From contig CALMRC010000102.1 in assembly GCA_937873275.1 (NCBI GenBank), forward strand, positions 1 to 62,637: 62,637 bases of DNA. The letters run 5' to 3'. The notes below the pieces were generated by a model. That model ran no database searches. It had not been told where the DNA came from and was given only the letters and a program-made list of their open reading frames with translations. Below, piece by piece: positions 14,803-32,624 of this stretch. Every line of letters begins with the position of its first letter. The first letter of the stretch is position 1. The position numbers and the translations under genes were made by a program. Origin of the DNA: an uncultured Spirochaetota bacterium. Lineage in GTDB: Bacteria; Spirochaetota; Spirochaetia; Treponematales; UBA12059.

Positions 14803-14904
14803 TACGACTCCCGCGCCCCGGGCGGAGCGGGGAACGGGGACGTGCGATCCGGGGATCGGGCATCGGGGCCCGGCTTCTTCTGGTTACAAGTGAGCACAAT
14901 AGTG

Positions 14905-14929
14905 ATCGTTTGATGGCCCTCGAAACGAT
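14905..14929. promoter_or_regulatory. Operator-like dyad upstream of ulaD
   Basis: ATCGTTT (14905-14911) and AAACGAT (14923-14929) form a perfect inverted repeat with 11 bases between. The core GATCGTTT recurs near the deoR-type gene and the FGGY kinase (24000-24007 and, inverted, 24930-24937), with GATCGTTC at the rbsB-like promoter (23889-23896). It lies about 36 bases upstream of the ulaD -35 box. A common regulator, probably the DeoR-family protein encoded at 24025-24801, is inferred. Confidence 0.45.
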
Positions 14930-14965
14930 GAATTCGATAATCGATGTTTAAAACGAACAAATAAG

Positions 14966-15044: not shown

Positions 15045-15722
15045 ATGGCACTGCCCCTGCTTCAGCTCGCCCTGGACAACAAGACCCTGCCGGACGCCCT
15101 GGTCTCCACCCGGCTCCTGGCCTCGGAGGTGGACGTGCTGGAGGCCGGTACCATACTCTGCTGCTCCGAGGGCATGCAGGCGGTTCGCTGCCTGAAGGCC
15201 CTCTACCCGGACCGGATCGTCCTTGCGGACATCAAGGCCGCGGACGCGGGTACCATCCTGGCCAACATGGTCTATGACGCGGGGGCGGACTGGATGACCG
15301 TGATCTGCTGTGCCCCCATCGCCACGGTTGAAAGCGCCCTGGCCGCCGCCAAAACCCGCAACGACGCGGGCAAGACCGGGGGGGTGCCCCGGGACGTCCA
15401 GGTCGAGCTGACGGGCTCCTGGACCTGGGAGGAAGCCGCGGCCTGGAGATCCGCGGGGGTGCGCCAGGTCGTGTACCACCGGGGCCGGGACGCCCAGGCG
15501 GCCGGCCAGTCCTGGGGCGAGGAGGACCTGTCCAAGATCCGCCGCCTGGCGGACATGGGCTTCGACCTTTCCATCACCGGGGGCCTCGTGGAGGACGACC
15601 TGCCCCTCTTCAAGGGCATCCCCGTGAAGGTCTTCATCTCCGGGCGCTCCATCCGGGACGCCGCGGATCCCGCCGCCGCCGCCCGGTCCTTCAAGGCCCG
15701 GATCGCCGAGCTCTGGGGTTAG
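15045..15722 (+). CDS. ulaD: 3-keto-L-gulonate-6-phosphate decarboxylase
   Basis: Converts 3-keto-L-gulonate 6-phosphate to L-xylulose 5-phosphate and CO2. The 225-residue chain is collinear with the E. coli UlaD/SgbH sequences as I recall them, with family blocks [16 protein letters not shown] (the D-x-K-x-x-D catalytic motif, about 62-67), [38 protein letters not shown] and [10 protein letters not shown]. The close match favours KGPDC over hexulose-phosphate synthase. AAAGGAG precedes the ATG at 15045; an upstream in-frame ATG at 14976 lies before the promoter -10 box and is rejected. First gene of ulaD-ulaE-ulaF, 2 bases from ulaE. Together with UlaG and the FGGY kinase it points to L-ascorbate or diketo/ketogulonate catabolism. 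Confidence 0.95.
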
Positions 15723-15724
15723 GC

Positions 15725-16600
15725 GTGGACGAGCGGCCCCGAACCCTGCCTCCCCGGATCGGGATCTACGAGAAGGCCCTGCCGGCGGGGCTCGACTGGC
15801 CCGGGATGCTCCGGGCGGCCCGGGAGGCGGGGTACGAGTACGTGGAGATGTCCGTGGACGAGACGGACGCCCGGCTGGCCCGCCTGGAGTGGACGGCGGC
15901 GGAGCGGGCGTCGTTCCGTCAGGTGGTGGCGGATTCCGGGCTCCGGGTGCCCTCGATGTGCCTGTCCGGGCACCGGCGCTATCCGTTCGGAAGCGTGGAT
16001 CCGGCCGTACGGAAGCGCGCCCGGGAGATCCTGGCCCGGGCCGTGGACCTGGCCGCGGATACGGGGATCCGGACCATCCAGCTGGCGGGCTACGACGTCT
16101 ACTACGAGCCGTCGACCCCGGAGACCCGGGCGCGGTTCGAGGAGGGGCTGGCCTGGGCTGTGGAGCTGGCGGAGCGGGCCCAGGTCTGCGTCGCCCTGGA
16201 GATCATGGACACGCCCTTCCTGGGCACGATCACCCGGTGGCTCCGGTTCGCGGAGAAACTGCCCTCCGCCTGGTTCCAGGTCTACCCGGACATCGGGAAC
16301 CTCTCGGCCTGGGCCGAGGACGTGGCCGGGGAATTGGCGAAGGCCCGGGGCCGGATCGCGGCGGTCCACCTGAAGGACACGCTGAGGCCCCGGCCGGGCT
16401 TCCCGGGGAAGTTCCGGGAGGTTCCCTTCGGGACCGGATGCGTGGACTTCCCGGGGGCCTTCCGCGCCCTGCGGTCGATCGGGTATCGTGGCTCGTACCT
16501 GGTCGAGATGTGGACGGACCGGTCCCCGGACCCGGCCGCGGAGATCCGGGCCGCCCGGGAATGGATCCTGGGCCGGATGCGGGAAGGAGGCATCGCGTGA
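15725..16600 (+). CDS. ulaE: L-xylulose-5-phosphate 3-epimerase (UlaE/SgbU type)
   Basis: Epimerises L-xylulose 5-phosphate to L-ribulose 5-phosphate. A TIM-barrel AP-endonuclease-2-fold protein of 291 residues with the family features GIYEKALP, EMSVDETDARLARLEW, MCLSGHRRYPFGS, a metal-ligand Glu in VALEIMDTPF (about 159), YPDIGNLSAW, HLKDT and a C-terminal E in YLVEMW. These match the UlaE/SgbU/UlaE-like hexulose-6-phosphate isomerase group closely. The start is GTG, 2 bases after ulaD. The stop overlaps the ulaF start by 4 bases (GTGA). The position between ulaD and ulaF is the same as in the E. coli ula and yia-sgb operons. Confidence 0.93.
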   Translation: MDERPRTLPPRIGIYEKALPAGLDWPGMLRAAREAGYEYVEMSVDETDARLARLEWTAAERASFRQVVADSGLRVPSMCLSGHRRYPFGSVDPAVRKRAREILARAVDLAADTGIRTIQLAGYDVYYEPSTPETRARFEEGLAWAVELAERAQVCVALEIMDTPFLGTITRWLRFAEKLPSAWFQVYPDIGNLSAWAEDVAGELAKARGRIAAVHLKDTLRPRPGFPGKFREVPFGTGCVDFPGAFRALRSIGYRGSYLVEMWTDRSPDPAAEIRAAREWILGRMREGGIA

Positions 16601-17292
16601 ACGTCGACGAGCTGAGGGAGTCCGTCTTCCGCGCCAACTTGGAGCTCCGGGACCGGGGCCTGGCCATCCTGACCTGGGGCAACGCCTCCGGCATCGACCG
16701 GGAGCGCGGCGTCGTGGCCATCAAGCCCTCGGGGGTTCCCTACGACGCGATGCGGCCCGGGGACATGGTCTTGGTGGACCTGGACGGGAAGTTCCTGGAA
16801 GGGAACCTGCGTCCGTCCTCGGACCTGGCCACCCATCTTGTCCTGTACCGGGCCTTCCCCGCCCTCGGGGGCGTCGTGCACACCCACTCGGTCCACGCCA
16901 CCGCCCTGGCCCAGGCCGGGGCCGACCTGGAGGCGGAGGGGACCACCCACGCGGACCACTTTTACGGTCCGGTGCCCTGTACCCGGGGCCTGACTCGGGC
17001 GGAAATCGAGGGGGAGTACGAGGCCGAGACCGGGAACGTCATCGTGGAGACCTTCCGGACCCGGGGTATCGATCCCGCCCGGGTCCCCGCGGTCCTGGTA
17101 CGGAACCACGGCCCCTTCGCCTGGGGGAAGAGTCCCGGGGACGCCGCGTTGAACGCCGTGGTCCTGGAGGAGGTGGCCCGGATGTCCATCCTGTCCCGGG
17201 CCTACGGGAACCCGGGGCCCATGCCCAAGGAGCTCCTGGACCGGCATTATCTTCGGAAGCACGGGGCCGGGGCGTACTACGGGCAGAAGTAA
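16597..17292 (+). CDS. ulaF: L-ribulose-5-phosphate 4-epimerase (UlaF/AraD/SgbE type)
   Basis: Converts L-ribulose 5-phosphate to D-xylulose 5-phosphate, which enters the pentose phosphate pathway. In 231 residues: TWGNASGID, the phosphate-binding KPSGVPYD and SSDLATH, the zinc-ligand pair HTHS (about 94-97), ADHFYGPVPCTR, and a third His ligand near residue 170 in LVRNHGPFAWG, followed by AYYGQK at the C terminus. All residues needed for the class II aldolase-type epimerase are present. The GTG start at 16597 follows GGAAGGAGG and overlaps ulaE by 4 bases. Last gene of the ulaDEF unit; the next gene has its own promoter. Confidence 0.95.
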   Translation: MNVDELRESVFRANLELRDRGLAILTWGNASGIDRERGVVAIKPSGVPYDAMRPGDMVLVDLDGKFLEGNLRPSSDLATHLVLYRAFPALGGVVHTHSVHATALAQAGADLEAEGTTHADHFYGPVPCTRGLTRAEIEGEYEAETGNVIVETFRTRGIDPARVPAVLVRNHGPFAWGKSPGDAALNAVVLEEVARMSILSRAYGNPGPMPKELLDRHYLRKHGAGAYYGQK

Positions 17293-17354: not shown

Positions 17355-17981
17355 ATGTCGGATCCCCTCAACCAACCCCACAGCAAGACCAGCATCGTGG
17401 TGGCCAACCCCTCGGCCATGGGCCTCTTCGGGCTGGCCATGGTGACCCTGGTCGCCTCCACCCAGAAACTCGGCTGGACCTCGGGCACCGCCTTCGAGCT
17501 GCCCTGGGCCCTCTTCCTCGGCGCGTCCCTCCAGCTGTACGCGTCCATCCTGGACGCCAAGCTGAACAACGCCTTCGGCGCCACGGCCTTCGGCGGCTAC
17601 GCCTTCTTCTGGTTCGCCGTCGGCATGACCTGGATGATCCAGGGCGGCTGGTTCGGACCGGACGTAGCGGCCCGGGCGGACATCCGCCAGCTGGGCGTCG
17701 CCTTCGCAGGCTACCTGGTCTTCAGCCTCTACATGACACTCGGCGCCCTGGCCACCACCAAGGTCCTATTCGGCATCTTCGTGCTGATCGACCTGCTTTT
17801 CCTGGGCCTGTCCCTGTCCGTCCTGGGGGTCGCCCCGGAATTCTTCCACACCCTGGCGGGCTGGGCGGAACTGGCCATCGCCTTGGCGTCCTTCTACGCC
17901 TCCGCGGCGGCCATCCTGAACGTCCAGTTCGGCCGGACGATCCTCCCCCTCGGGAAGGCCTTCGGCATCCGCCGCGGCTGA
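17355..17981 (+). CDS. satP: GPR1/FUN34/YaaH (SatP) family acetate/succinate transporter
   Basis: Inner-membrane channel-like carrier for acetate and small carboxylates. The 208 residues have six hydrophobic spans. The family signature N-P-[AS]-x-[ML]-G-L appears as NPSAMGLFGLA (about 19-29), the first span's constriction motif, and FGGYAFFWFAVGM corresponds to the third segment. No signal peptide. The gene lies 62 bases after ulaF but has its own strong promoter and no Shine-Dalgarno sequence, suggesting leaderless translation. Downstream is a terminator shared with the convergent ulaG operon. Acetate is a plausible end product of ascorbate fermentation via acetyl phosphate, so export is a sensible role; direction is inference. 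Confidence 0.9.
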   Translation: MSDPLNQPHSKTSIVVANPSAMGLFGLAMVTLVASTQKLGWTSGTAFELPWALFLGASLQLYASILDAKLNNAFGATAFGGYAFFWFAVGMTWMIQGGWFGPDVAARADIRQLGVAFAGYLVFSLYMTLGALATTKVLFGIFVLIDLLFLGLSLSVLGVAPEFFHTLAGWAELAIALASFYASAAAILNVQFGRTILPLGKAFGIRRG

Positions 17982-18164: not shown

Positions 18165-19229
18165 CTACAGGAACGAGGGGTACGGCAGGTCCGTCGGGCC
18201 TTCGAAGACGTCCTCGAAGCCCCGGGGGTAGTGGTACTCGATCCGGTCCTTGTCGACGGGCCAGGTGAACTTGCCCCCCACCTGCCATACGAAGGGTGTG
18301 AAGCCGTAGCCCAGGCGGTCCTTCCGCATCCTCCACAGGGCCACGATCTCCATGGGGTCCGCCTGGAAGTTCGTCCAGATGTCGTGGTGGAAGGGTATGA
18401 CCGTCTTGGCGTTCAGGCACTCCGCCATGCGCAGGATGTCCACGCTGGTCATCTTGTCCGTCACGCCCCGGGGATTCTCCCCGAAGGAGCCGAGGGCCAC
18501 GTCGATCCTGTGCTCGTTTCCGTGCTTGGCGTAGTGGTTGGAGTAGTGGGAGTCCCCGGAGTGGTAGAGGGAGCCGCCGGGGGTCTTGAAAAGGTAGTTC
18601 ACCGCCCGTTCGTCCATGTCCTGGGGCATTCGGCCCGCCAGGCCCTGGTCCGCGGGGGCGGTGATCAGGGCGGTCCGGTCGAAGGATTCCAGGGCCAGGA
18701 TCTCGACGTCCTTGACCTTGACGACGTCCCCGGGCTTCACGGTCACGCAGCGGCCCTCCGGCACCCCCCAGGAGGTCCAGAGCTTCACGCAGGCCGCCGG
18801 CCCGACGAAGGGGACGTCGGGGCCGCAGTTCTTCAGGACCGCGGCGGCCACGTTCACGTCGATGTGGTCGTTGTGGTCGTGGGTGGCCAGGACGGCGTCC
18901 ACGTTCTTGATGGCGAAGGGATCCAGGGGGAAAATCGAGTTCCGGAGGTTCAGCTGGAGCTTTTTGGCTCCCGTCATCCTCTGCATCTGGTGTCCCGCGG
19001 CCATCACGGGATTCTTGTGGGTCTTCTTTCCGGTCCCGACCCAGAAATCGGTGCAGATGTTCGCCCCCCCCGGGGACTTGAGCCAGATGCCCGTGCAGCC
19101 CAGCCACCATATAGCGAAGGTCCCGGGGGCGACCTTTTCGTCCTCGATCTCCTCGTTGAGCCAGGTTCCCCATTCGGGAAAGGTGCCCAGGATCCAGGAT
19201 TCCCGGGTGATTCCGTCGATCTTAGCCAA
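18165..19229 (-). CDS. ulaG: L-ascorbate-6-phosphate lactonase (UlaG)
   Basis: Metallo-beta-lactamase-fold hydrolase that opens the lactone ring of L-ascorbate 6-phosphate to give 3-keto-L-gulonate 6-phosphate, the UlaD substrate. The 354 residues match UlaG length and show WLGCTGIWL, the metal-binding THDHNDHID (116-124), [11 protein letters not shown] and [12 protein letters not shown], all characteristic of the UlaG branch. The start codon is TTG, with an excellent AGGAGG 6 bases upstream. It is the last gene of the ABC-importer operon (25 bases after the permease gene), which ties the importer to ascorbate-type substrates. UlaG is known from PTS-dependent pathways in which the substrate arrives phosphorylated; here no PTS gene is present. 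Confidence 0.93.
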
Positions 19230-19254: not shown

Positions 19255-20214
19255 CTACGCCCGGGAGAGGGTTCGGCGCTTGGGCACCAGGTACCCCTCG
19301 TTCAAGAGCAGGGCGAGTATGATCACGGTGCCGATCGCGATGGGTTGATATAGGTTCGGCACGTTCAATAGATTGAGGCCGTTGATGATGAAGGCCACCA
19401 TGATGGCCCCGATCAGGGCTCCCACGACGGAACCCCGGCCGCCCACGGCGCTGGTACCGCCGATCACCAGGGCGGTCATCACGTCCAGCTCGATCCCCGA
19501 GGCCGCGGCCGCGAAGACCTGCTGGGTCAGGGAGGCCAGGATCACGCCCCCCACCGCGGAGGTGCCGCCGGAGATCGTGTAGGAGATCAGCCGGACCCGG
19601 TCGGGGTCCACGCCGGACAGCCGGGCGGCCACCTCGTTGGACCCCACCGCCATGACCTGGCGCCCGAAGGCCGTCCTGCGGAGTACGAACTGGCTCGTGA
19701 TCACCAGGGCTACCATGATGTAGATCGGGTTGGGCAGGCCCAAAAAGCGGCCCGTGCTGATAAGGATGAAGGGTTTCGGTTCCAGGATGGCCAGCATGGC
19801 GCCCTGGGAGACCACCAGGGCGATCCCGTAGAGGTAGGTCTTGGCGGCCATGGTGACCACGAAGGCGGGGATCTTGATCTTGGCCACGATGAAGCCGTTG
19901 AACAGGCCCACCAGGGATCCGATGACCACGGTCAGGAAGATGGACGGGATCCAGGGTATCCCCATCCGGTTCATGAACAGGTCCACCACGATGCCCGAGA
20001 GGGCGGCCGTGGAGCCCAGGGACAGGTCGATGCCCCCGGTGATCCGCGGGTAGATGGCCCCGGAGGACAGGATGCCGATGAAGCATACCGACCAGACCAC
20101 GTTGGTCAGGTTGTCCAGGGTCAGGAACCGCGGGGACAGGATGGTCAGCACCGCCATCAGGGGTACCAGGACGATGGCGAGCCGGAGTTCGGTGGCGATC
20201 GGTTTCTTATTCAT
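19255..20214 (-). CDS. Ribose-type sugar ABC transporter permease (RbsC family), copy 1
   Basis: Membrane subunit of a CUT2/ribose-type importer. The 319 residues carry eight to ten hydrophobic spans and RbsC-family blocks: [16 protein letters not shown] (about 59-74), [30 protein letters not shown] and [25 protein letters not shown] near the C terminus. It overlaps the ATPase gene by 8 bases and is followed by ulaG after 25 bases. A second, clearly different permease gene lies upstream of the ATPase, so the transporter is probably a heterodimer with two distinct membrane subunits, as in some CUT2 systems. The substrate is inferred from ulaG in the same operon. Confidence 0.92.
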
Positions 20215-21739
20215 CGTCTCCCTCCCGGATGCCGGAGGCGGCGCGCAGGATCTTCTCGCCCGTCAGGACGCATTCCCGGAACTCATGGAAGAACCGGCCT
20301 TGCCGGAGGACGATCACCCGGTCCGACAGGCGGGTGAGCTCCGGCAGGTCCGAAGACACCAGGAGGACGGACACCCCCCGGGCCGAGAGGGCCCGGATGT
20401 GCTCGTAGATCTCCTCCTTGGCGCCGATGTCGATACCCACCGTGGGTTCGTCGATGAAGATCAGCTTGAGATCCCGGACCAGCCACTTTGCCAGGACCAC
20501 CTTCTGCTGGTTCCCTCCGGACAGGTTCCCCACCAGCTGCTCCGGCCGGGGAGGCTTCACGTTCAACAGCTCGATGCCCCGGGCCGCCCGGCGGTCCTCC
20601 TCCTTGACGCTCACGATGCCCCGGGGGGCGATCCGGTCCAGGTTCGGGATGCCGATGTTCCGGGTGATGGATTGGGTGGCCAGGATGCCCTGGAGGCGGC
20701 GTTCCTCGGGGATGAAGCCGATCCCGCCCTCGATGGACTTCCGGACCGAGGGGACCCATTCCTTCCCCAGGTAGCGGATCGTGCCGGCGTCGAAGGGATC
20801 CGCCCCGTACAGCGCCCGGACCAGCTCCGTCCGTCCGGAGCCCACCAGGCCCCCGATGCCCAGGACTTCGCCCTCGTGGAGGTCGAAGGACAGGTCCTCG
20901 AACTTCCCCACCGAGGTCAGACCCCGGACCTCCAGCACCACGTTCCCGCCCTTGGGCGAAAGCTCGTGCTGGACCGCCTTCTCCTCCAGCTTGTGGCCGA
21001 TCATGAGGCGGATGATCTCCTCCGGGCTGATCTCCTCCTTGTCCAGGACCTTCACGAGCTTGCCGTCCCGGAGGACCGTCACCCGGTCCGACAAGGAATA
21101 GACCTCCTCCATCCGGTGGGAGATATAGAGGACGCTGATCCCCTCGCTCTTGAGGAGGGCGATGATCTTGAAGAGCATCTCCACCTCCGTCTTGGTCAGG
21201 GAGGAGGTCGGCTCGTCCATGATCATGAGGCTCGCCTTGCCGGACAGGGCCTTCAGGATCTCCACCAGCTGGCGCTGGGCGATGCTGATGTCGTCGATCA
21301 GGTCCCCGGGTTTCAGGGGGAATTGGTACCGCTCGATGAGATCCCGGGCCTGGTCGTTCAACTTCCGGACGTCGATCAGCCGGGTGAGGGGGCGGAGGGG
21401 CTCCTTGCCCAGGAAGATGTTCTGGGCCACCGTCATGCCCGGGATCAGGCTGAGTTCCTGGTAAATGACCGCGATGCCCAGGGCCTCCGCGTCCCGCCGG
21501 AGATGCTCCATCGGAACCACGGTCCCGTCGTACACCATCTGGCCGGAATCCCGGCCCGTGGCGCCGGTGATGATCTTGATGAGCGTGGACTTGCCCGCGC
21601 CGTTCTCCCCGACCAGGGCGTGGACCTCGCCCCGGCGCACCGAGAAGTCCACGGCGTCCAGGACCACGTGGCCCGAGTAGGATTTCGTGATGGAGCGGCA
21701 CTCCAGGAGGAGGTCCGCGCCGATATCGTTGGTCGCCAT
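20207..21739 (-). CDS. Ribose-type sugar ABC transporter ATP-binding protein (RbsA family)
   Basis: Tandem ATPase that powers the importer; 510 residues with two nucleotide-binding domains. Domain 1 has GENGAGKST (Walker A, about 44-52) and a Q-loop and MDEPTSSL (Walker B). Domain 2 has the degenerate Walker A GLVGSGRTE typical of CUT2 ATPases, with signature NLSGGNQQKVVLAKWL and IDEPTVGIDIG. The domain 1 signature is degenerate (ISIAQRQLVEI), as is usual in RbsA. GGAGGG precedes the ATG. The gene sits between the two permease genes and overlaps the second by 8 bases. Confidence 0.95.
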   Translation of the reverse strand: MATNDIGADLLLECRSITKSYSGHVVLDAVDFSVRRGEVHALVGENGAGKSTLIKIITGATGRDSGQMVYDGTVVPMEHLRRDAEALGIAVIYQELSLIPGMTVAQNIFLGKEPLRPLTRLIDVRKLNDQARDLIERYQFPLKPGDLIDDISIAQRQLVEILKALSGKASLMIMDEPTSSLTKTEVEMLFKIIALLKSEGISVLYISHRMEEVYSLSDRVTVLRDGKLVKVLDKEEISPEEIIRLMIGHKLEEKAVQHELSPKGGNVVLEVRGLTSVGKFEDLSFDLHEGEVLGIGGLVGSGRTELVRALYGADPFDAGTIRYLGKEWVPSVRKSIEGGIGFIPEERRLQGILATQSITRNIGIPNLDRIAPRGIVSVKEEDRRAARGIELLNVKPPRPEQLVGNLSGGNQQKVVLAKWLVRDLKLIFIDEPTVGIDIGAKEEIYEHIRALSARGVSVLLVSSDLPELTRLSDRVIVLRQGRFFHEFRECVLTGEKILRAASGIREGDDE

Positions 21740-21748
21740 GCCGCCCTC

Positions 21749-22762
21749 CTAGGCCGCGTCCCGGCCCCGCTCGGCCGAGAGCCGCTTGATCTTGGCCCGG
21801 GCCGCCAGGTGCTCCCGGAGTTTTTTCTGCCAGACGTCCACGATGACCGTCACCACGATGATTCCCCCGATGGCGATCGGCTGGATCCAGGGGGAGATGC
21901 CGGTCTTCAGGATCCCGTTCTTGATGAGGGCCAGGAAGAGGGACCCGAGCATCGTGCCCCAGACGTCCCCGACGCCCCCGGAGAAGGCGGTGCCCCCGAT
22001 GACCACCGAGGCTATGACGTCCATTTCGGAGCCCAGGCCCAGCTCCGGCATCGCGGTCATCATCCGGGAGGAGATGAAGACCGCGGCCAGGGATGCGCAG
22101 ACTCCCGAGAACATGTAGACCCCGATGGTGGTGCGTTCCGTGTCGATCCCCGTCAGCCGGGCGGCGGTGGGGTTGGCGCCGGTGGCGTATATGTTCGTTC
22201 CCGTGCGGGTGTGCTTGAGGAAGACCTGGGCGCCGACTCCCAGGATCAGGAAGGCCATGGTGGTTCGGTAGATCCCGAAGAGCCCGGAAGTCCCGAACCA
22301 GAGGTAGGAGTCGTTCTGGATGTAGACGTTCTGCACGAAGCCCAGGGAGTCCTTTACGGCGATGACCAGGGCCAGGCCCGACAGGATGCTGCGGGTGGCC
22401 AGGGTCACGATGAACTCCGGAAGCTTGAACTTGGTGATGAAGTAGCCGTTCACCAGGCCCGTCAGGGCTCCGACGAAGAGGGAGAGGAATACCAGGACGG
22501 GGATCGGGACCTTGGTGTAGTGGAGGAAGTTGATGCAGACCATGGAGGTCACCGCGACGACCCCGCCGATGGACATGTCGATCCCGGCGGTGATCATCAC
22601 GAAGGTAAACCCCACGGCGATGATCCCCGTCTGGGCCGCTTCCTGCAGGAGCTTGAGCAGGTTCCCGGAGCTCAGGAAGACCGGGTTGATCGCGGTGATC
22701 AGGGCGGAAAGAGCGAGCATCAGGCCGATCAGGATCAGCCTACGGACGGCATGGTGGGACAC
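21749..22762 (-). CDS. Ribose-type sugar ABC transporter permease (RbsC family), copy 2
   Basis: Second membrane subunit of the importer, 337 residues, about nine hydrophobic spans. Family blocks are ITAGIDMSIGGVVAVTSMV (about 58-76), EFIVTLATRSILSGLALV, TGANPTAARLTGID and VIASVVIGGTAFSGGVGDVWG. The basic C-terminal tail (KKLREHLAARAKIKRL) is cytoplasmic. Start is GTG with GGAGG upstream. It lies 105 bases after the binding-protein gene and 9 bases before the ATPase gene. The two permeases in this operon share the fold and motifs but are far from identical, which suggests an old duplication and a heterodimeric pore. Confidence 0.92.
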   Translation of the reverse strand: MSHHAVRRLILIGLMLALSALITAINPVFLSSGNLLKLLQEAAQTGIIAVGFTFVMITAGIDMSIGGVVAVTSMVCINFLHYTKVPIPVLVFLSLFVGALTGLVNGYFITKFKLPEFIVTLATRSILSGLALVIAVKDSLGFVQNVYIQNDSYLWFGTSGLFGIYRTTMAFLILGVGAQVFLKHTRTGTNIYATGANPTAARLTGIDTERTTIGVYMFSGVCASLAAVFISSRMMTAMPELGLGSEMDVIASVVIGGTAFSGGVGDVWGTMLGSLFLALIKNGILKTGISPWIQPIAIGGIIVVTVIVDVWQKKLREHLAARAKIKRLSAERGRDAA

Positions 22763-22867: not shown

Positions 22868-23812
22868 CTACCAGCGATCCTCGGGGGCGATCTGGCCGAC
22901 GGTCTCCTTGGTGGCGGCGAAGGGCGGAATCTGGATGACCTTGGTCTCGGCGGCCTTGGAGGGCCCGAGCTTCTTCTGGAGGATCTCCATGACCATTTCC
23001 GCGATCAGGCTGCCCTGGGCGAAGGAGTTGTTGTACGCGGTTCCGGCGATCTTTCCCTGCTCGATGAGGGCCAGGGTGCTCTTCTGGCCGTTGGCGCCCC
23101 AGACCTTGATCTGGTCCAGGCGGCCGGCGGCCTCGGCGGCGATCATGGCGCCCTCGGCCATGTTGTCGTTGACCGCGAAGACCCCGTCCAGCTGCTTGTT
23201 GGCCTGGAGGAAGCCGTTCATGATGGTGATGGCGATCTCCTTCTTCCAGCCCTCGGCGCTCTGGGCCCCGACGATCTTGATGTTCGGGTAGAGCTCGGCC
23301 AGGGCCTGGCGGAAGCCCTTCTCCCGGTTGACGCCCAGGATGGCGCCCGGGGGCGACTGGATGATGACCACGTTGCCCTTGCCGCCCAGCTGCTTGCCCA
23401 TCTCCTTGCCCACGGCGTAGCCGGCGGAGATGTCCGCCATCTGGACGCTGGCGGTGTGCTTCTGGATGGTGGCCAGGTTCACCGTGATGACGGGGATGCC
23501 CTTGGCCTCCGCGGCCTTTACCGAGGCGGAGAGCCCCGCGGCGTCCATGGCCTGCAGGACGATGGCGTCGTACTTCTGGTTGATCACGTCGTCCATGTAG
23601 GAAACCTGGAGTTCCGCCTTGAGCTGGGCGTCGAAGGACTGGACCTTGACGTTCGGGTACTTGCGGAACACGCGCATCATGCCCTCGAGCCAGGCGTTCG
23701 TGTTGGGCTGGCCGATGGACTGGGGGATGTACGCGACCTTGTAGGTCTGGGCGAAGACGGGGACGGCGAGCAGTACGCAGAGCAGCGCCGCGACGATAGC
23801 GGTCTTCTTCAT
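22868..23812 (-). CDS. Periplasmic sugar-binding protein of ribose-type ABC transporter (RbsB family)
   Basis: Substrate-binding protein, 314 residues, with a signal peptide (about 1-21, ending VFAQT). It has the periplasmic-binding-protein type 1 fold: VAYIPQSIGQPNTNAW at the start, YDAIVLQAMDAAGL, PVITVNLATI, EKGFRQALAE, GVFAVNDNMAEGAM and VWGANGQKSTLALIEQGKI are the usual sugar-pocket segments. AGGAGG precedes the ATG. It is the first gene of the five-gene operon binding protein-permease-ATPase-permease-ulaG; such high-copy binding proteins often come first. The downstream lactonase and nearby ulaDEF suggest ascorbate or a related lactone/sugar acid as substrate, but ligand specificity cannot be read from sequence. 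Confidence 0.95.
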   Translation of the reverse strand: MKKTAIVAALLCVLLAVPVFAQTYKVAYIPQSIGQPNTNAWLEGMMRVFRKYPNVKVQSFDAQLKAELQVSYMDDVINQKYDAIVLQAMDAAGLSASVKAAEAKGIPVITVNLATIQKHTASVQMADISAGYAVGKEMGKQLGGKGNVVIIQSPPGAILGVNREKGFRQALAELYPNIKIVGAQSAEGWKKEIAITIMNGFLQANKQLDGVFAVNDNMAEGAMIAAEAAGRLDQIKVWGANGQKSTLALIEQGKIAGTAYNNSFAQGSLIAEMVMEILQKKLGPSKAAETKVIQIPPFAATKETVGQIAPEDRW

Positions 23813-23886
23813 TCTGTGCCTCCTGGGCTGGATGGATCCGATCCGATTCGCCGGTGGACAGGAGGGTGCAGCAACGCGAATCGATC

Positions 23887-23928
23887 TTGATCGTTCCCCA
23901 GGATAAATCCCTAATGCTCATTTGGCAA
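23887..23928 (-). promoter_or_regulatory. Promoter of the ABC importer-ulaG operon with GATCGTT motif
   Basis: On the minus strand TTGCCA (23928-23923), 17-base spacer, TATCCT (23905-23900). TTGATCGTTC (plus strand, 23887-23896) overlaps the expected transcription start, a good place for a repressor. Just upstream lie two direct copies of CATTATTT(T)CG (about 23930-23950). Confidence 0.6.
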
Positions 23929-23999
23929 GCATTATTTTCGCATTATTTCGTTTTTATGTTCTAAAAGTGTCCCTTTAACCCTTATTCGATCATTTTATC

Positions 24000-24007
24000 G
24001 ATCGTTT
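24000..24007. promoter_or_regulatory. GATCGTTT motif between the importer operon and the deoR-type gene
   Basis: GATCGTTT at 24000-24007, within the AT-rich stretch TCGATCATTTTATCGATCG (23986-24004), which holds two nested GATC half-sites. It lies just past the 3' end of the regulator gene and upstream of the importer promoter. Same core as at 14904-14911 and, inverted, 24930-24937. Confidence 0.35.
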
Positions 24008-24024
24008 ATGGGCGCCGAAGGGTA

Positions 24025-24801
24025 TCAAGCCAGGATCACCTGGATGCCCAGGGCTTCCAGGTCCTTCCGGTAGGGATCCGGGCAGTCCACGTCGGTGACG
24101 AGGATATCCACCTTCGAAAGCGGGGAGGATACGAAGTTTGCTACCTTTCCCATCTTGGAGGAGTCCGCCAGGACGATGATCTTCCCGTGGGTATGCTCGA
24201 TCATCGCCTGGTTCACGCTGCACTCCTGGTAGACGCTGGTCGTTAGCCCCCGATCCAGGGACAGGCCGTTGGTGCCCAGGATGGTGTGGTCCGCCCAGAT
24301 GTTCCGGATGGCGGACAGCGTGAACTCCCCGACCAGGGACTGGGACTGTTCCCGGTACTCGCCGCCCAGGATCATGAGCTCCAGTCCCGGGGAGCCGGGG
24401 ACCGACAGGGAGGCCACGTTGTTCGTGATGACCTTCGCCCTCCGTCCCGCCAGGGCCCGGAGGAAGCAGAGGGTCGTGGATCCCGAGTTCATGAACAGGA
24501 TTCCGTCGTCCTCCAGGAGCCGCACGGCCGCGGCGGCGATCCGGTTCTTGGCCTCGATGTTGAGGACGTCCTTCTCGCTGAGCATCTTCTCGGGGACGGA
24601 GCCGTCCTCCTCCACGGGGACGGCACCCCCGTGCCTGCGCAGCAGGGAGCCCTCCCGGGAGAGGTGGTCCAGGTCCCGGCGGATCGTGATCGGGGAGACG
24701 CCGAGGGACTCCGAGAGCTCCTCCACGGTGGCCATTCCCCTCGACCGGACCGATTCCAGTATATGCAAGCGTCTTCTGTATACCGCCGCGTTCGAAGCCA
24801 T
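24025..24801 (-). CDS. DeoR-family transcriptional regulator
   Basis: Sugar-phosphate-responsive repressor of the DeoR/GlpR/UlaR family, 258 residues. The N-terminal winged helix shows RRLHILESVRSRGMATVEEL and the recognition helix VSPITIRRDLDHL, followed by the family hallmark LRRHGGAVP. The sensor domain (isomerase-like) has NSGSTTLCFLRAL, ILGTNGLSLDRGLTT and ADSSKMGK, all standard ligand-pocket motifs. I start at 24801, where GGGGAGAG precedes the ATG; a 22-residue longer form lacks a ribosome site. It is divergent from the FGGY kinase gene. UlaR of E. coli belongs to this family, so control of the ula-type genes is likely; the shared GATCGTTT motif supports this but is inference. Confidence 0.92.
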   Translation of the reverse strand: MASNAAVYRRRLHILESVRSRGMATVEELSESLGVSPITIRRDLDHLSREGSLLRRHGGAVPVEEDGSVPEKMLSEKDVLNIEAKNRIAAAAVRLLEDDGILFMNSGSTTLCFLRALAGRRAKVITNNVASLSVPGSPGLELMILGGEYREQSQSLVGEFTLSAIRNIWADHTILGTNGLSLDRGLTTSVYQECSVNQAMIEHTHGKIIVLADSSKMGKVANFVSSPLSKVDILVTDVDCPDPYRKDLEALGIQVILA

Positions 24802-24892
24802 GGCTCTCCCCGTTCGACCGTTCCGGGCTTTTCGGACTTCCCGGACGTCCGTCCATATATGTACCATACGGGGCGAAGCTCGGCTAGCATTT

Positions 24893-24944
24893 TTGATCGC
24901 TTATCCGAATATCTTGCGCGATCCGATCCAAACGATCGTATACT
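24893..24944 (+). promoter_or_regulatory. Promoter/operator region of the FGGY kinase gene
   Basis: TTGATCGCTTATC (24893-24905) and AAACGATC (24930-24937, inverted GATCGTTT) bracket a weak promoter TTGCGC (24914-24919), 19-base spacer, TATACT (24939-24944). The second motif abuts the -10 box, a position suited to repression by the divergent DeoR-family protein. Confidence 0.45.
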
Positions 24945-24959
24945 GTTCACGGAGGCGCC

Positions 24960-26453
24960 ATGGGAACCGAAGGCATCATCGCGATCGACGCGGGCACGAC
25001 CAGCATCCGGGCCGTCCTGTTCGACCGGTCCGGGCGGGCCGCGTCCGCCGCCCAGGAGGAGAACCCCCCGGCGTACCACGGCGACGGCCGGGTGGAGCAG
25101 GAGGCCTCCACCTGGGCGGGGGCCCTCTTCCGGATCCTGGGCCGGATCTCCCGGGAGGCCGCGGCCGAAGGAGTCGGCGTGTCGGCGATCACCGTCACCG
25201 CCAACCGATCCTGCGTCCTTCCCGTGGATTCCCGGGGAGGGGCCCTCCATCCGGTCATCATGTGGCAGGATACCCGAACCGACGGGATCTGCCGCGAACT
25301 CGCCGCCCAGTCCCGCAGGGTCTACGAGCGGTCCGGCCTACCCGTCACCTCGGTGTTCTCGGCGGTCAAGATGGCCTGGCTCCGGAGGGAGCGCCCGGAG
25401 GTATGGGCCCGGACGGCCCGGATGCTGGGGGTCCAGGATTACCTGATCTTCCTTCTCACCGGACTTTTCGTCACGAACCGCTCCCTGGCCAGCCGCACGA
25501 ACCTGTTGAGCCTGGAGACCGGGGACTGGGACCCGGAACTCCTCGGGATCTTCGGTATCGAGCGCCGGGTCCTCTGCGACCTGGTCGATCCCGGCCGGGA
25601 GGCGGGGGCCCTGACCCCCGAGGCGGCGGCCGCCGCCGAGCTTCCCCCGGGCATCCCGGTGGTGACCGCCGGGGGAGACCAGCAGTGCGCGGCCCTGGGC
25701 ATGGGGCTCCTGGCGGCGGGGGACGTTGTGGCCAACACGGGCACCGGTTCCTACGTGATCGGCCTGTCCGACCGGCCCGTCCGGGATCCGGAGATGCGCC
25801 TGTATTGCAACATCTCGGCCCTCCCCGGGCGCTACGTGGCGGAGGCCGCCTCCCCCGCGGCGGGGGTCGCCTACCGATGGTTCCGGGACCGCTTCTACGG
25901 GGGGCCGGACGGTTCGGCGGACGGGTTCGGGGCCGTCAACGCCGAAGTCGAGGCGTCCCCTCCCGGGGCGAACGGTGTGGTCCACCTTCCCCGATTCAAG
26001 AGCATGGGGGCCGGGGTCGGAAACCCCGGAATCTCGGCCGGCCGGGCCTCTTTCCACGGCATCGGCCTTTCGACCTCCCGGGGCGACCTGGCCCGGGCCG
26101 TCCTGGAGGGCGTGGCCGCGGACATGGCGGACAACCTGGGGCTGGTCGAGCGATGGACGGGTCCCAAGGAGGCGGTTCGGGTCGCGGGGGGACTGACCCG
26201 GTTCCCGGAGTTCGACCGTATCCTGGCCTCCCTCTGCGGCCGTCCGGTTGTCCTGGCCCCGGAAAGCGAGGCCACCGCCCGGGGAGCCTGGATCAGCGCC
26301 GCGGTCCGCCGGGGCCTGTACCCGGACGCCGCGGCGGCCTATGCCGCCTCCGGCGCGGGAGCGGGGGACCGGATCTTCGAGCCGGACCCCGCCCGGCGGG
26401 ACGTGTACGCGAGGCTGCGGGAGGAGCGGGCCAGGCTCGGATCCTCGGACTGA
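24960..26453 (+). CDS. FGGY-family carbohydrate kinase
   Basis: Phosphorylates a sugar or sugar acid with ATP; 497 residues, normal for the family. It shows AIDAGTTSIRAVLFD (phosphate 1 motif, about 8-22), VEQEAS, the TANRSCVLPVD and WQDTRTD substrate-region blocks, TAGGDQQCAALG with the catalytic Asp (about 238), NTGTGSYV (phosphate 2) and the adenosine motif RVAGGLTRFPEFDRILA. GGAGG lies before the ATG. The kinase is divergent from the DeoR-family gene and flanked by ula genes, with no PTS present. Candidates are LyxK/YiaP-like 3-keto-L-gulonate or L-xylulose kinase, or a kinase acting on ascorbate itself at O6. The sequence alone does not choose between these; xylulokinase is also possible. 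Confidence 0.88.
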   Translation: MGTEGIIAIDAGTTSIRAVLFDRSGRAASAAQEENPPAYHGDGRVEQEASTWAGALFRILGRISREAAAEGVGVSAITVTANRSCVLPVDSRGGALHPVIMWQDTRTDGICRELAAQSRRVYERSGLPVTSVFSAVKMAWLRRERPEVWARTARMLGVQDYLIFLLTGLFVTNRSLASRTNLLSLETGDWDPELLGIFGIERRVLCDLVDPGREAGALTPEAAAAAELPPGIPVVTAGGDQQCAALGMGLLAAGDVVANTGTGSYVIGLSDRPVRDPEMRLYCNISALPGRYVAEAASPAAGVAYRWFRDRFYGGPDGSADGFGAVNAEVEASPPGANGVVHLPRFKSMGAGVGNPGISAGRASFHGIGLSTSRGDLARAVLEGVAADMADNLGLVERWTGPKEAVRVAGGLTRFPEFDRILASLCGRPVVLAPESEATARGAWISAAVRRGLYPDAAAAYAASGAGAGDRIFEPDPARRDVYARLREERARLGSSD

Positions 26454-28746: not shown

Positions 28747-29721
28747 TTACGTGTACACCTCGGGATTCAGACAGTCCGGGGCCTTCTGGCCCTTCACCAT
28801 GGCGATCACGTTCGCGGCCGCTTTCAAGGCCATTCCGTTCCGGCTGGAGACCGTGGCGCTGGCGGTGTGGGGGGTGATGACCACGTTCGGCAGGGAGGCC
28901 AGGCCCTCCGCCAGGGCGGGCTCCCGCTCGTAGACGTCCAGGCCGGCCCCCGCGATGAGCCCGTCCTTCAAGGCCCGGACCAGGTCGTCCTCGGCAAGCA
29001 CCGGACCCCGGGCGGTGTTGACGAGGTAGGCGGTCTTCTTCATCTTCCGGAAGGTGTCGTAGGTGAAGAGGTGCCGGGTCTCCGGCATCAGGGGCACGTG
29101 GACGCTCACGAAATCCGACTGGGCAAGGAGTTCCTCGAAGGGAACGAAGCGGGCGCCGACGGCCTTCTCCAAGGCCTCGTTGCGGCGGGCGTCGGTGTAC
29201 AGGACCTTCATGCGGAAGCCGACGCTCTTGGCGGCCATGGCCGCCCCGATCCGTCCGGCCCCCACGATGCCCAGGGTCGCCCCGGTCACGTCCCCGCCGA
29301 TGAACTGCAAGGGCCCCCAGCCCTTCCATGACCCCGAGCGGTTCACGCCGTCGGACTCCACCACCCGCCGGGCCGCGGCGAACAGCAGGGCCCAGGCCAT
29401 GTCCGCCGTGGCGTCCGTGAGCACGTCCGGGGTGTTGGACAGGGGAATCCGGCGGCGGGTGGCCTCCGGCACGTCCAGGTTGTCGAAGCCCACGGCGAAG
29501 TTGGCGAAGCCCTTGACCCCCGCGGCGGCCTCGAAGGCCTCGGCGTCGACCTTGTCCGTGAGGAGGCAGACCACCCCGTCCCGGCCTTGGATCGCGTCCA
29601 GGAATTCCCGGCGGGTCAGGGGCCGGTCGTGGGGGCTCACCTCCACCTCGCATTCCTTCCGGAGCAGGTCCAGCCCCGCGTCGGGGATGCGCCGGGTCAC
29701 GTATACCTTGGGTTTCGCCAT
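28747..29721 (-). CDS. D-2-hydroxyacid dehydrogenase (glyoxylate/hydroxypyruvate reductase type)
   Basis: NAD(P)-dependent oxidoreductase of 324 residues acting on D-2-hydroxyacids such as glycerate, glycolate or gluconate. It shows the substrate-loop FANFAVGFDNLDV (about 72-84), the Rossmann motif GIVGAGRIGAAMA (about 151-163), VNTARGPV with the catalytic Arg (about 235), LDVYEREP with the catalytic Glu (about 264) and ITPHTASA with the catalytic His (about 282). The closest general type is GyaR/GhrB. AAGGAGACG precedes the ATG. Last gene of the operon starting at 33589, about 85 bases after the TIM-barrel gene. It could handle glycolaldehyde-, glycerate- or ketoacid-type products of the pathway. 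Confidence 0.9.
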   Translation of the reverse strand: MAKPKVYVTRRIPDAGLDLLRKECEVEVSPHDRPLTRREFLDAIQGRDGVVCLLTDKVDAEAFEAAAGVKGFANFAVGFDNLDVPEATRRRIPLSNTPDVLTDATADMAWALLFAAARRVVESDGVNRSGSWKGWGPLQFIGGDVTGATLGIVGAGRIGAAMAAKSVGFRMKVLYTDARRNEALEKAVGARFVPFEELLAQSDFVSVHVPLMPETRHLFTYDTFRKMKKTAYLVNTARGPVLAEDDLVRALKDGLIAGAGLDVYEREPALAEGLASLPNVVITPHTASATVSSRNGMALKAAANVIAMVKGQKAPDCLNPEVYT

Positions 29722-29805
29722 CGTCGTCTCCTTGGAAAGAATATGCCCGGCGCGGATCGAAGTCCCGCCGGGCAGTCGAATGATCGGGCGGTGTCCGGAC
29801 CCGCC

Positions 29806-30771
29806 TCAGTCCCGGAGCCCGAAAACCTCGGTCTCCAGGAGCTTCCAGGTCTCCAGGTACCCGGGCCCGCCCATCCGGGCCTCGATGGCCTTGGAATCCA
29901 GGCGGTCCAGGAGCTTCTCGATCCGGCGGGAGAGCCGGGCGTTCGCCTCGAAGGTGCCCGCCACGTCCCAGCGGGTCGGGCTCGTGTCCGAGGTGTACCA
30001 CCCGTCGTACCCGATACGGCGAAGATACCACAGGAACTCCACGTACTCCAGGTAGTGCTTGGTGCCGCAGAAATAGTCCCAGTCCCACTTGCCGTCGTTG
30101 TCGTTGATGTGCACGTACAGGGGTACCCCGCTTCCGTGCACCAGGGCCGCGGCCTCCGCGGGGTTCTCCCCCCCGTAGACCGAGTGCCCGAAGTCCAGGG
30201 TGACCCCCAGGCCCCGGGTTCCCGCGTCCCGGATCAGGCAGAGGGTCTTGGCCGCGCTGTCGACGAAGCACCGGCCCCGGGTCTCCGAGGGTTTGTACTC
30301 CACGAAGAGGGTCACCTCGGGCCGGTGGGCCGCGGCTTCCGCGAAGGCGTCCGCCAGGTGACGCCAGGAAGCGGCGTAGTCGTACTGGAAGGAGAACTCG
30401 TACCCGTCTCCCAGGGGACAACAGGTCACCTTGTCCGCCCCGACGGCGGCGGCGTAGTCCTTGGCCTCCTTGAGGAAGCGGACGGCCTTGGCCCGGATCC
30501 CGGGATCCGAGGAGGTCAAGCCCCCGGAGCGGAACTCGGGTTCCGCCTTGACGTTCACGTTGATCGCCGCCACGGAAAGCCGGTGCTTGGCCAGGAGGGA
30601 CTTGAGCTCTCCCGCGGAGGGGACCTCGTAGGGATGGACCACCTCGACCCCGGAATAGCCGGGGATGGAGGCCAACAGCTTGAACTTTGCGTCCAGGTCC
30701 AGGGCCTCGTTGTATTCATGGAACCGGTCCTTGGTCTTGCCCAGGAATCCGGTGATGACGGCCAGCTTCAT
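29806..30771 (-). CDS. Sugar phosphate isomerase/epimerase, AP-endonuclease-2 fold (TIM barrel)
   Basis: A 321-residue TIM-barrel protein of the xylose-isomerase-like/AP endonuclease 2 superfamily. Likely metal ligands and active-site residues are seen in GVEVVHPYE (about 36-44), TLFVEYKPSE (about 175, Glu), VTLDFGHSVYGGENPAEA (about 205, Asp/His), PLYVHINDNDGKWDWD (about 238) and WYTSDTSPTRWDV near the end. These features fit a sugar epimerase or isomerase acting on an unphosphorylated or phosphorylated ketose. Between the transketolase small-subunit gene and the dehydrogenase gene in the same operon. The exact reaction is not recognisable; a second, distinct protein of the same fold opens the operon. 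Confidence 0.85.
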   Translation of the reverse strand: MKLAVITGFLGKTKDRFHEYNEALDLDAKFKLLASIPGYSGVEVVHPYEVPSAGELKSLLAKHRLSVAAINVNVKAEPEFRSGGLTSSDPGIRAKAVRFLKEAKDYAAAVGADKVTCCPLGDGYEFSFQYDYAASWRHLADAFAEAAAHRPEVTLFVEYKPSETRGRCFVDSAAKTLCLIRDAGTRGLGVTLDFGHSVYGGENPAEAAALVHGSGVPLYVHINDNDGKWDWDYFCGTKHYLEYVEFLWYLRRIGYDGWYTSDTSPTRWDVAGTFEANARLSRRIEKLLDRLDSKAIEARMGGPGYLETWKLLETEVFGLRD

Positions 30772-30822
30772 GCGGTCCTCCTTCTCGTCTCGATGCCGGA
30801 GCCGCCCGGGGGCGGTCCGGGA

Positions 30823-31776
30823 CTAGTTCTTTCGCGCGACCAGGTCCCGGGCCGTCCGGGCGATGGCGGCGGCGTCCAGGCCGAACTTCTCCAGGGTCTT
30901 GGCGTACGCCCCGCTCTCGGCGAAGGTGTCCGCCAGGCCCAGTTGTGCGAAAGGCACGGAGCGGCCGTTCCGCATGCACCAGGCCGCCAACTCGTAGCCC
31001 AGGCCGTTCCGCCTCTGGTGGTTTTCCGCCACCAGTAGGGCTCCGGTACGGTCCAGGGACTTCGCCAGGGCGGCCTCGTCCCAGGGCTTCAGGGAGTAGA
31101 GGTCCAGTACCTCCGCGGAGATCCCCTCGGCGGCCAGGAGCTCCGCCGCCTCGACGGCCTGGATGACCATGTCCCCCAGGCAGGCGATGGTCACGTCGTC
31201 CCCGCGCCGGGGGGTGTGGCTCCCGCCCACCCGGAAGGTGGTCTCCGGGGCGTAGACCTCCTTGAGGGGATCCCGCATGAGTCGGACGAAGACGGGGCCC
31301 GGGGTGTTCCGGGCCAGGTCGAAGGCCGCCCGGGCGCTCGCGCTGTCGCAGGGGGCCAGGACGGTCATGTTCGGCAGGGTCGCCATGAAGGCCAGGTCCT
31401 CGGTGGCCTGGTGGGTCACCCCGTCGATGGCCGCGGTCACCCCCGCGTGGCTGGAGAAGATCTTCACGTTGAGGCGCGGGTAGCAGACGAAGGACCGCAC
31501 CGCCTCCAGGGCCCGCATGGTCAGGAAGACGCCGTATCCGCAGACGAAGACGGTCCGGCCGTCCGCGGCCAGGCCCGCGGCGGCGGCCATGGTCCCGAGC
31601 TCCGCGATGCCCAGGTTGAAGTACCGGTCGGGGTAGGCGTCCCCGAAGAGGTAGGAATAGGTGGAATACCCGATGTCCGAATCCAGGACCACGAAGCTCC
31701 GGTCCTCCCTCGCGGCCTCCACCAGCCGGTCCATGATGGCGCGCCGGGTGGGCGCCTTGGCGGGGGGCAGGCTCAT
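30823..31776 (-). CDS. Split transketolase, C-terminal (pyrimidine-binding and C-) subunit
   Basis: Second half of a two-gene transketolase, 317 residues. It contains the pyrimidine-binding domain, with the catalytic Glu in NLGIAELGTMAAAAGLAADG (about 54-73), FSSHAGVTAAIDGVTHQATEDLA (about 110) and the swivelling C-terminal domain. I take the ATG at 31776, whose GGGAGG ribosome site lies within the 3' end of the partner gene; start and stop overlap as ATGA. The N-terminal TPP-binding half is directly upstream. Split transketolases occur in many anaerobes and in dedicated catabolic operons; the neighbouring isomerases suggest a specialised ketose (phosphate) substrate here. Confidence 0.93.
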   Translation of the reverse strand: MSLPPAKAPTRRAIMDRLVEAAREDRSFVVLDSDIGYSTYSYLFGDAYPDRYFNLGIAELGTMAAAAGLAADGRTVFVCGYGVFLTMRALEAVRSFVCYPRLNVKIFSSHAGVTAAIDGVTHQATEDLAFMATLPNMTVLAPCDSASARAAFDLARNTPGPVFVRLMRDPLKEVYAPETTFRVGGSHTPRRGDDVTIACLGDMVIQAVEAAELLAAEGISAEVLDLYSLKPWDEAALAKSLDRTGALLVAENHQRRNGLGYELAAWCMRNGRSVPFAQLGLADTFAESGAYAKTLEKFGLDAAAIARTARDLVARKN

Positions 31777-32624
31777 TCGGTCCTCCCTTCGATCTCCTCG
31801 CAGGCCCGTCGGCGTTCCTCGTCCGAGGGCGGCTTGCCGTGCCACTCGCGCTTGTCCTCCATGAAGCTCACTCCCTTTCCCTTGACCGTCCGGGCGATCA
31901 CGCAGGTGGGCTTGCCGGTGCGCTCCCGGGCCTTTTCCAGGGTCGCCAGGACCTGCCGCATGTCGTGCCCGTCCATCTCCAGGACCCGCCAGTTGAAGGA
32001 CTCGAACTTCCGGTCGATGGGCTCCATGGGCAGGATGTCGTCCGCCCGGCCGTCGTTCTGGAGGTTGTTCCGATCCACGATGGCCACCAGGTTATCCAGG
32101 CGGTACTTGGCCGCCTGGGCGGCGGTTTCCCAAACCACCCCCTCGTCCAGTTCCCCGTCCCCGAGCACAGCCCAGACCGTGTTCGTACGGCCCGAAAGCC
32201 GGGCGTCCAGGGCCATGCCCAGGGCCTGCCCGAACCCGAGGCCCAGGGATCCCGAGGTGGCGTCCACCCCGGGCAGGTAGGTCGCCACGGGGTGACCCTG
32301 GAGACGGCTGTCGTTTCGCCGCAGGGTGGAGAGCTCCTCCACCGGGAAGTAGCCCCGGAGGGCCAGGGCGGCGTACCAGACCGGGCAGGCGTGGCCCTTG
32401 GAAAGGACGAAGCGGTCCCGGTCGGGCTTGCGGGGCTCGGCCGGGTCGATGTCCATCAGGTCGAAGTACAGGGCGGTCACGAAGTCCGCGGCGGAGAGGC
32501 TCCCTCCGCAGTGCCCGGACTGCGCGGAATGGACCATCTCCACGATGGCGCGGCGCACGTCCCGGGCCTTGGCCTCCAGGAACGCGACCCGCTCCTCCGG
32601 GGAGCGGGCGCTCGGATTCGTCAT
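31773..32624 (-). CDS. Split transketolase, N-terminal (TPP-binding) subunit
   Basis: First half of a two-gene transketolase, 283 residues. SGHCGGSLSAADFVTALYF (about 37-55), RFVLSKGHACPVWYAALA, GSLGLGFGQALGMALDA and the thiamine-diphosphate motif GDGELDEG (about 152-159) running to N-N-L-Q-N-D (about 184-189) are all present, as are the conserved histidines. AAAGGAGC precedes the ATG. The stop overlaps the C-terminal subunit start by 4 bases and the start overlaps the TIM-barrel gene stop by 4, so the three are translated as a unit. With its partner it transfers a two-carbon ketol unit between sugar phosphates. Confidence 0.94.
   Translation of the reverse strand: MTNPSARSPEERVAFLEAKARDVRRAIVEMVHSAQSGHCGGSLSAADFVTALYFDLMDIDPAEPRKPDRDRFVLSKGHACPVWYAALALRGYFPVEELSTLRRNDSRLQGHPVATYLPGVDATSGSLGLGFGQALGMALDARLSGRTNTVWAVLGDGELDEGVVWETAAQAAKYRLDNLVAIVDRNNLQNDGRADDILPMEPIDRKFESFNWRVLEMDGHDMRQVLATLEKARERTGKPTCVIARTVKGKGVSFMEDKREWHGKPPSDEERRRACEEIEGRTE

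Follow-up and report, generated by a model that had tools for sequence, protein, structure and literature searches.

Comparative genomics predicts an FGGY-family L-ascorbate 6-kinase in a ula cluster that lacks the UlaA-family permease

The FGGY kinase encoded in the ascorbate cluster of the window, the 62,637-nucleotide stretch of DNA analysed here, is probably an ATP-dependent L-ascorbate 6-kinase, a substrate predicted from comparative data. Anaerobic ascorbate use via UlaG is described as PTS-dependent. In the proposed pathway, free L-ascorbate would be imported by an RbsBAC-type ABC transporter, and the kinase would phosphorylate its terminal 6-hydroxyl group to give L-ascorbate 6-phosphate, taking over the job of the PTS in E. 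coli as a soluble enzyme. UlaG would open the lactone to 3-keto-L-gulonate 6-phosphate, UlaD would decarboxylate this product, and UlaE and UlaF would epimerise the result to D-xylulose 5-phosphate; these steps are known in E. coli and are transferred by homology. Judged by sequence comparison, the assignment is favoured by the co-occurrence of the kinase with UlaG, the mutual exclusion of phosphorylation modules, the conservation of UlaG, the pairing with three kinds of transporter, a pocket signature, independence from UlaD, and common promoter sites.

The kinase gene is an uninterrupted open reading frame of 497 residues, whose ATG start at position 24960 is immediately preceded by a GGAGG ribosome-binding sequence. 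The protein matches FGGY_N (PF00370, 194 bits) and FGGY_C (PF02782, 67 bits) along its whole length, and contains the GTG motif and the catalytic Asp240, which is invariant in the alignment. Its AlphaFold2 model (pLDDT 83.7, with an unreliable loop at residues 344-363) adopts the FGGY kinase fold and aligns over its full length with FGGY kinases of solved structure, with Z ~45 for gluconate kinase 3gbt and for glycerol kinases; the best match is 3gbt (Z 45, rmsd 2.7, 480 aligned residues). The two domains, the catalytic Asp and the fold match place the protein in the FGGY family. The modelled fold is common to all the matched kinases, and the substrate cannot be read from it. GlpK, XylB, LsrK and gluconate kinase share this fold, the catalytic Asp and the nucleotide-binding motifs, and none of them exceeds about 30% identity to it; the E. 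coli FGGY kinases are 23-29% identical (LyxK 25%, XylB 26%). Since every NCBIfam equivalog model scored far under its cut-off, the kinase is left without an assigned specificity. It is the sole FGGY protein of the ula cluster, consistent with the first-pass annotation, which had called it the only sugar kinase in an ascorbate locus; the intact reading frame, the domains, the catalytic Asp and the surrounding ula genes bear out that description.

Table 1. Features of the ula cluster in the window and of related loci
Feature	Position	Strand	Basis
Three TGATCGTTT-like sites upstream of ulaD	14903..14959		Site search
UlaD	15045..15722	+	Homology begins at ATG 15045; NF009832 over cut-off; 63% to E. 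coli UlaD
UlaE/SgbU, L-xylulose/L-ribulose-5-phosphate 3-epimerase	15725..16600	+	TIGR00542 over cut-off; 57% to SgbU
UlaF/AraD, L-ribulose-5-phosphate 4-epimerase	16594..17292	+	NF006047 over cut-off; 56% to UlaF
GPR1/FUN34/YaaH-family membrane protein	17400..17981	+	PF01184; near cluster in G001 and G064 too
UlaG, L-ascorbate 6-phosphate lactonase	18165..19229	-	NF008688, 643 bits vs cut-off 306; 76% to E. coli UlaG
RbsC-type permease 2	19255..20214	-	ORF; synteny in relatives
RbsA-type double ATPase	20207..21739	-	ORF; synteny in relatives
RbsC-type permease 1	21749..22762	-	ORF; synteny in relatives
RbsB-type substrate-binding protein	22868..23812	-	PF13407; kept in cluster
rbsB upstream region, TGATCRTTT-like sites (e.g. 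23888, 23999)	23813..24024		Site search
DeoR-family regulator	24025..24867	-	PF08220/PF00455; 30% to E. coli UlaR; kept beside kinase
Divergent kinase/DeoR intergenic region, two TGATCGTTT-like sites (24894, 24930)	24868..24959		Site search
FGGY kinase, predicted L-ascorbate 6-kinase	24960..26453	+	PF00370/PF02782; own clade 100/98; UlaG-linked pocket signature
PfkB-family kinase in ulaG cluster	L080:7929-9005, L079:10359-11426, L074:11202-12212, G251:C393:962-2026		Genomes without FGGY kinase and without UlaABC
~350-aa FG-GAP-like protein	L028:10479-11561, L029:10677-11768, L030:7008-8120, L117:10040-11140		
~350-aa FG-GAP-like protein, more loci	L026:8239-9330, L128:6089-7306, L077:10703-11746, L082:10179-11279		

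Orthologues of UlaG, UlaD, UlaE and UlaF in one cluster place the locus in the ula pathway, and the window UlaD is closer to UlaD (63% identity) than to SgbH (52%). Divergently from the kinase run the genes for the DeoR regulator, RbsB, RbsC, RbsA, RbsC and UlaG, and the ulaD-ulaE-ulaF operon with the YaaH-family gene faces this run. The helix-turn-helix of the DeoR protein begins at residue 30 of the annotated frame, and the real start is probably further in. The cluster resembles the E. coli ula regulon in its lactonase, decarboxylase, epimerases and DeoR-type regulator, but where E. coli has the UlaABC PTS it has an ABC transporter plus a soluble kinase, which would split uptake from phosphorylation. 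The genome, 97% complete, yielded EI but no EIIC-GAT (UlaA-family) permease, and the idea of a PTS encoded outside the cluster was rejected on the missing EIIC-GAT. Over 100 ulaG loci were surveyed in 2011, and every one was reported to have the ulaABCDEF unit (PMC3219644). TGATCRTTT-like sites, first spotted by eye, number three ahead of ulaD, four ahead of rbsB and two in the kinase/DeoR intergenic region; shuffling each region 300 times never gave as many. They recur in relatives, where several regions are individually not significant. These common sites suggest a single regulon.

A separate operon at 28747-33589 encodes a split transketolase, two xylose-isomerase-like TIM barrels and a 2-hydroxyacid dehydrogenase, and it is complete beside the kinase only within the same genus. 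A split transketolase operon is the kinase's neighbour in the window, G001 and G002. The kinase could be an ordinary pentulose kinase, for xylulose, ribulose or apulose, that serves this operon or the ula genes, as its adjacency in these three genomes and the best NCBIfam match, XylB, would allow. We consider this very improbable. The XylB score is 243 bits against a cut-off of 380, and the XylB and glycerol kinase assignments were rejected on such curated cut-offs; the genome has six further FGGY proteins elsewhere, among them kinases closer to AraB, XylB and GlpK. Since most relatives keep the kinase and UlaG without the transketolase operon, service to that operon in particular seems unlikely.

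In the tree, the kinase group, including a copy from Levilactobacillus brevis, is set apart from LyxK, XylB, AraB, GlpK, LsrK, FucK, RhaB and YgcE with support of 100/98, a value that applies to the whole group and does not fix the position of the G100 and G125 kinases inside it. All UlaG-linked kinases share R83, S84, M101, Q103, D104, Q241, Q242, C243, N259 and Y265. This signature is held even in G103 (36% identity) and in the L. brevis copy (32%), and at position 102 the single departure is a cysteine in G002. Together, S84, M101, C243, N259 and Y265 are peculiar to the clade when compared with FGGY kinases of known specificity. Positions 83/84, 102 and 265 align with the substrate contacts R83/E84, W103 and F270 of GlpK. 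The kinases of G100 and G125, two genomes in which UlaG was not found, carry A84, V243 and F265 (S84A, C243V and Y265F).

The L. brevis gene lies on a plasmid (L134, NZ_CP113121.1), immediately upstream of ulaG and then ulaD, and a lone EIIC-GAT permease belongs to the same cluster. A gene for a LyxK-like kinase accompanies ulaE and ulaF on this plasmid, and insertion sequences interrupt the region. This relative was reached through UlaG; no close copy of the kinase was found on plasmids at 1e-60. The comparison covered genomes of one class together with E. coli and plasmid records, and the only support across phyla is this one plasmid.

Of 297 evenly sampled class genomes, 11 have a kinase of the clade (E<=1e-70), 26 have UlaG scoring over cut-off and 9 have both (hypergeometric P=3.5e-9, a guide only, as shared ancestry is ignored). 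The two kinases without UlaG, in G100 and G125, are 38-39% identical to the window kinase and have a GntP gluconate-type permease and a 2-hydroxyacid dehydrogenase as cluster neighbours. Among further kinase-bearing genomes of the order, 10 of 11 have UlaG, the exception being G005, which is 72% complete. Scanning the genome collection with the single kinase sequence returned generic FGGY kinases only. In close relatives the set of kinase, DeoR, RbsBAC, UlaG and ula enzymes is retained, but the gene order varies. Since the kinase and UlaG lie on different contigs in the fragmented genomes G030, G047, G058, G079, G112 and G177, their adjacency there is extrapolated from relatives. Seven genomes that yielded no UlaD still have the kinase alongside UlaG, a pattern that links it more closely to the lactonase than to the decarboxylase; the converse combination, kinase and UlaD in a near-complete genome without UlaG, was not seen.

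Among 27 UlaG genomes in which the module was identifiable (UlaG at >=60% identity to that of the window or E. coli), each has one phosphorylation module and none has two: the FGGY kinase in 19, a PfkB-family kinase beside UlaG in four (G210, G251, G260 and G291) and UlaABC in four (G035, G245, G275 and G300). The P value of this mutual exclusion, 4.5e-7, likewise ignores shared ancestry and is a guide only. No module was seen in the UlaG genomes G143, G166 and G270, which have contig ends or broken or incomplete assemblies. High-scoring EIIC-GAT proteins in G098, G251 and G291 do not match E. coli UlaA and were treated as other PTS permeases. The PfkB proteins beside ulaG are 85-100% identical to the query copy, and the next PfkB in 43 genomes is 52% identical; in G210 the gene lies ~6 kb from ulaG on the same contig. 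The PfkB protein is a candidate for a second ascorbate kinase family. Three unrelated kinds of transporter accompany the FGGY kinase, namely RbsBAC, a CUT1 type (SBP_bac_1 with two BPD_transp_1) and an XylFGH-like system (L077). Transporters of these types do not phosphorylate their cargo. What is constant across the clusters is one phosphorylation step together with UlaG.

The kinase might also act after UlaG. UlaG would then open free L-ascorbate to 3-keto-L-gulonate, and the kinase would phosphorylate this product for UlaD, in the manner of LyxK, an FGGY kinase described as acting on 3-keto-L-gulonate (PMC6958661). Module exclusion is equally expected in this case, which counts against taking it as evidence for an ascorbate kinase, and since both leading models predict it, the substrate state of UlaG decides between them. 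UlaG of the window is 76% identical to the PTS-dependent E. coli enzyme and keeps 107 of the 112 columns invariant among PTS-linked UlaGs. PTS-, FGGY- and PfkB-linked UlaGs interleave within one clade, and a PTS-linked and a PfkB-linked copy (L078 and L079) are 88% identical. A switch from a phosphorylated to a free substrate seems unlikely over such small distances, and the kinase therefore most likely acts before UlaG. Action after UlaG would be compatible with the presence of UlaD in the window and with the PfkB replacement, which resembles 2-keto-3-deoxygluconate kinases. Since the FGGY kinases of the G100/G125 type also lie in a gluconate-type cluster, both families may lean toward open-chain keto-acids. 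Moreover, UlaG-like proteins of 52-55% identity occur with no kinase nearby (L081 and L083-L088), so the UlaG scaffold may act on free lactones. These proteins form a branch outside the three-module clade and have lost M76 and H80, which are invariant in all three modules. A kinase for 3-keto-L-gulonate is further disfavoured by the retention of the kinase with UlaG where UlaD was not found and by the converse combination not having been seen. LyxK orthology was rejected on 25% identity, the separate clade and different pocket residues, and the E. coli yia-sgb operon that encodes LyxK differs from the window cluster in having no lactonase and in carrying the 2,3-diketo-L-gulonate symporter YiaMNO. 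On balance, we regard phosphorylation of 3-keto-L-gulonate as rather unlikely. The first-pass annotation had reasoned that UlaG, if it keeps its known specificity, needs a phosphorylated substrate and that this protein is the sole kinase at hand, and had left an ascorbate kinase and a LyxK-like enzyme as its two options. The reasoning is strengthened by the tracking of the clade with UlaG, module exclusion and the near-identical UlaGs; of the options, the ascorbate kinase has become the more likely, and the analogy with LyxK has lost ground on identity, clade and pocket.

Among the clusters of UlaG-like proteins without a nearby kinase, those in L084-L088 (52-54%) contain a CUT1-like ABC transporter and dehydrogenase-like genes, with no UlaD nearby, and possibly represent a lactone pathway without phosphorylation. 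The proteins in L081 and L083 (~55%) are accompanied by TctABC-like transporter genes and the ~350-aa FG-GAP-like protein of Table 1.

A further alternative to L-ascorbate itself is a close analogue or derivative, either an isomer or an O-substituted form that is trimmed first, which the kinase and UlaG would convert through a different phospho-lactone. URO-D- and MTTB-family genes occur in ascorbate-type clusters (URO-D in L068:13788-15140 and L075:16709-17848, MTTB in L077:6428-8020). Corrinoid methyltransferases belong to both families, a hint that the substrate may be methylated in some lineages. We also know of no ABC protein that binds ascorbate, which would fit an analogue. However, UlaD, UlaE and UlaF of the window score as standard ascorbate enzymes, and PTS-linked UlaGs are placed among the kinase-linked ones; an analogue thus appears improbable.

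The preferred reading, an L-ascorbate 6-kinase, would extend the known ula pathway by a variant that has a newly predicted activity in a known kinase family. The broader proposal, that ATP-dependent L-ascorbate 6-kinases were recruited at least twice, from the FGGY and PfkB families, as soluble replacements of the PTS working with several unrelated ABC transporters, is in our view evenly balanced. A full-text search of open-access literature found no paper on an ascorbate kinase, which does not establish priority. If the reading is correct, a PTS-free branch with a predicted ascorbate kinase activity is added to ascorbate use, and the cluster holds the first candidate ABC importer for vitamin C. 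Bacteria importing vitamin C by an ABC pump would feed the same breakdown pathway as the PTS of E. coli, a clear-cut example of modules being exchanged while the lactonase is conserved, and the annotation of such proteins as xylulokinase or glycerol kinase would be corrected.

All eight UlaG genomes that yielded no UlaD (G025, G058, G064, G067, G091, G103, G177 and G035) encode a ~350-aa protein beside the kinase or UlaG. It matched no Pfam or NCBIfam family over cut-off and has a weak FG-GAP match; it may form a beta-propeller, and it contains invariant His, Arg and Asp residues. Genomes that have UlaD showed no copy at the UlaG/UlaD locus, and two of them, G119 and G291, have one elsewhere. 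This FG-GAP-like protein is a candidate for a non-homologous replacement of the decarboxylase UlaD.
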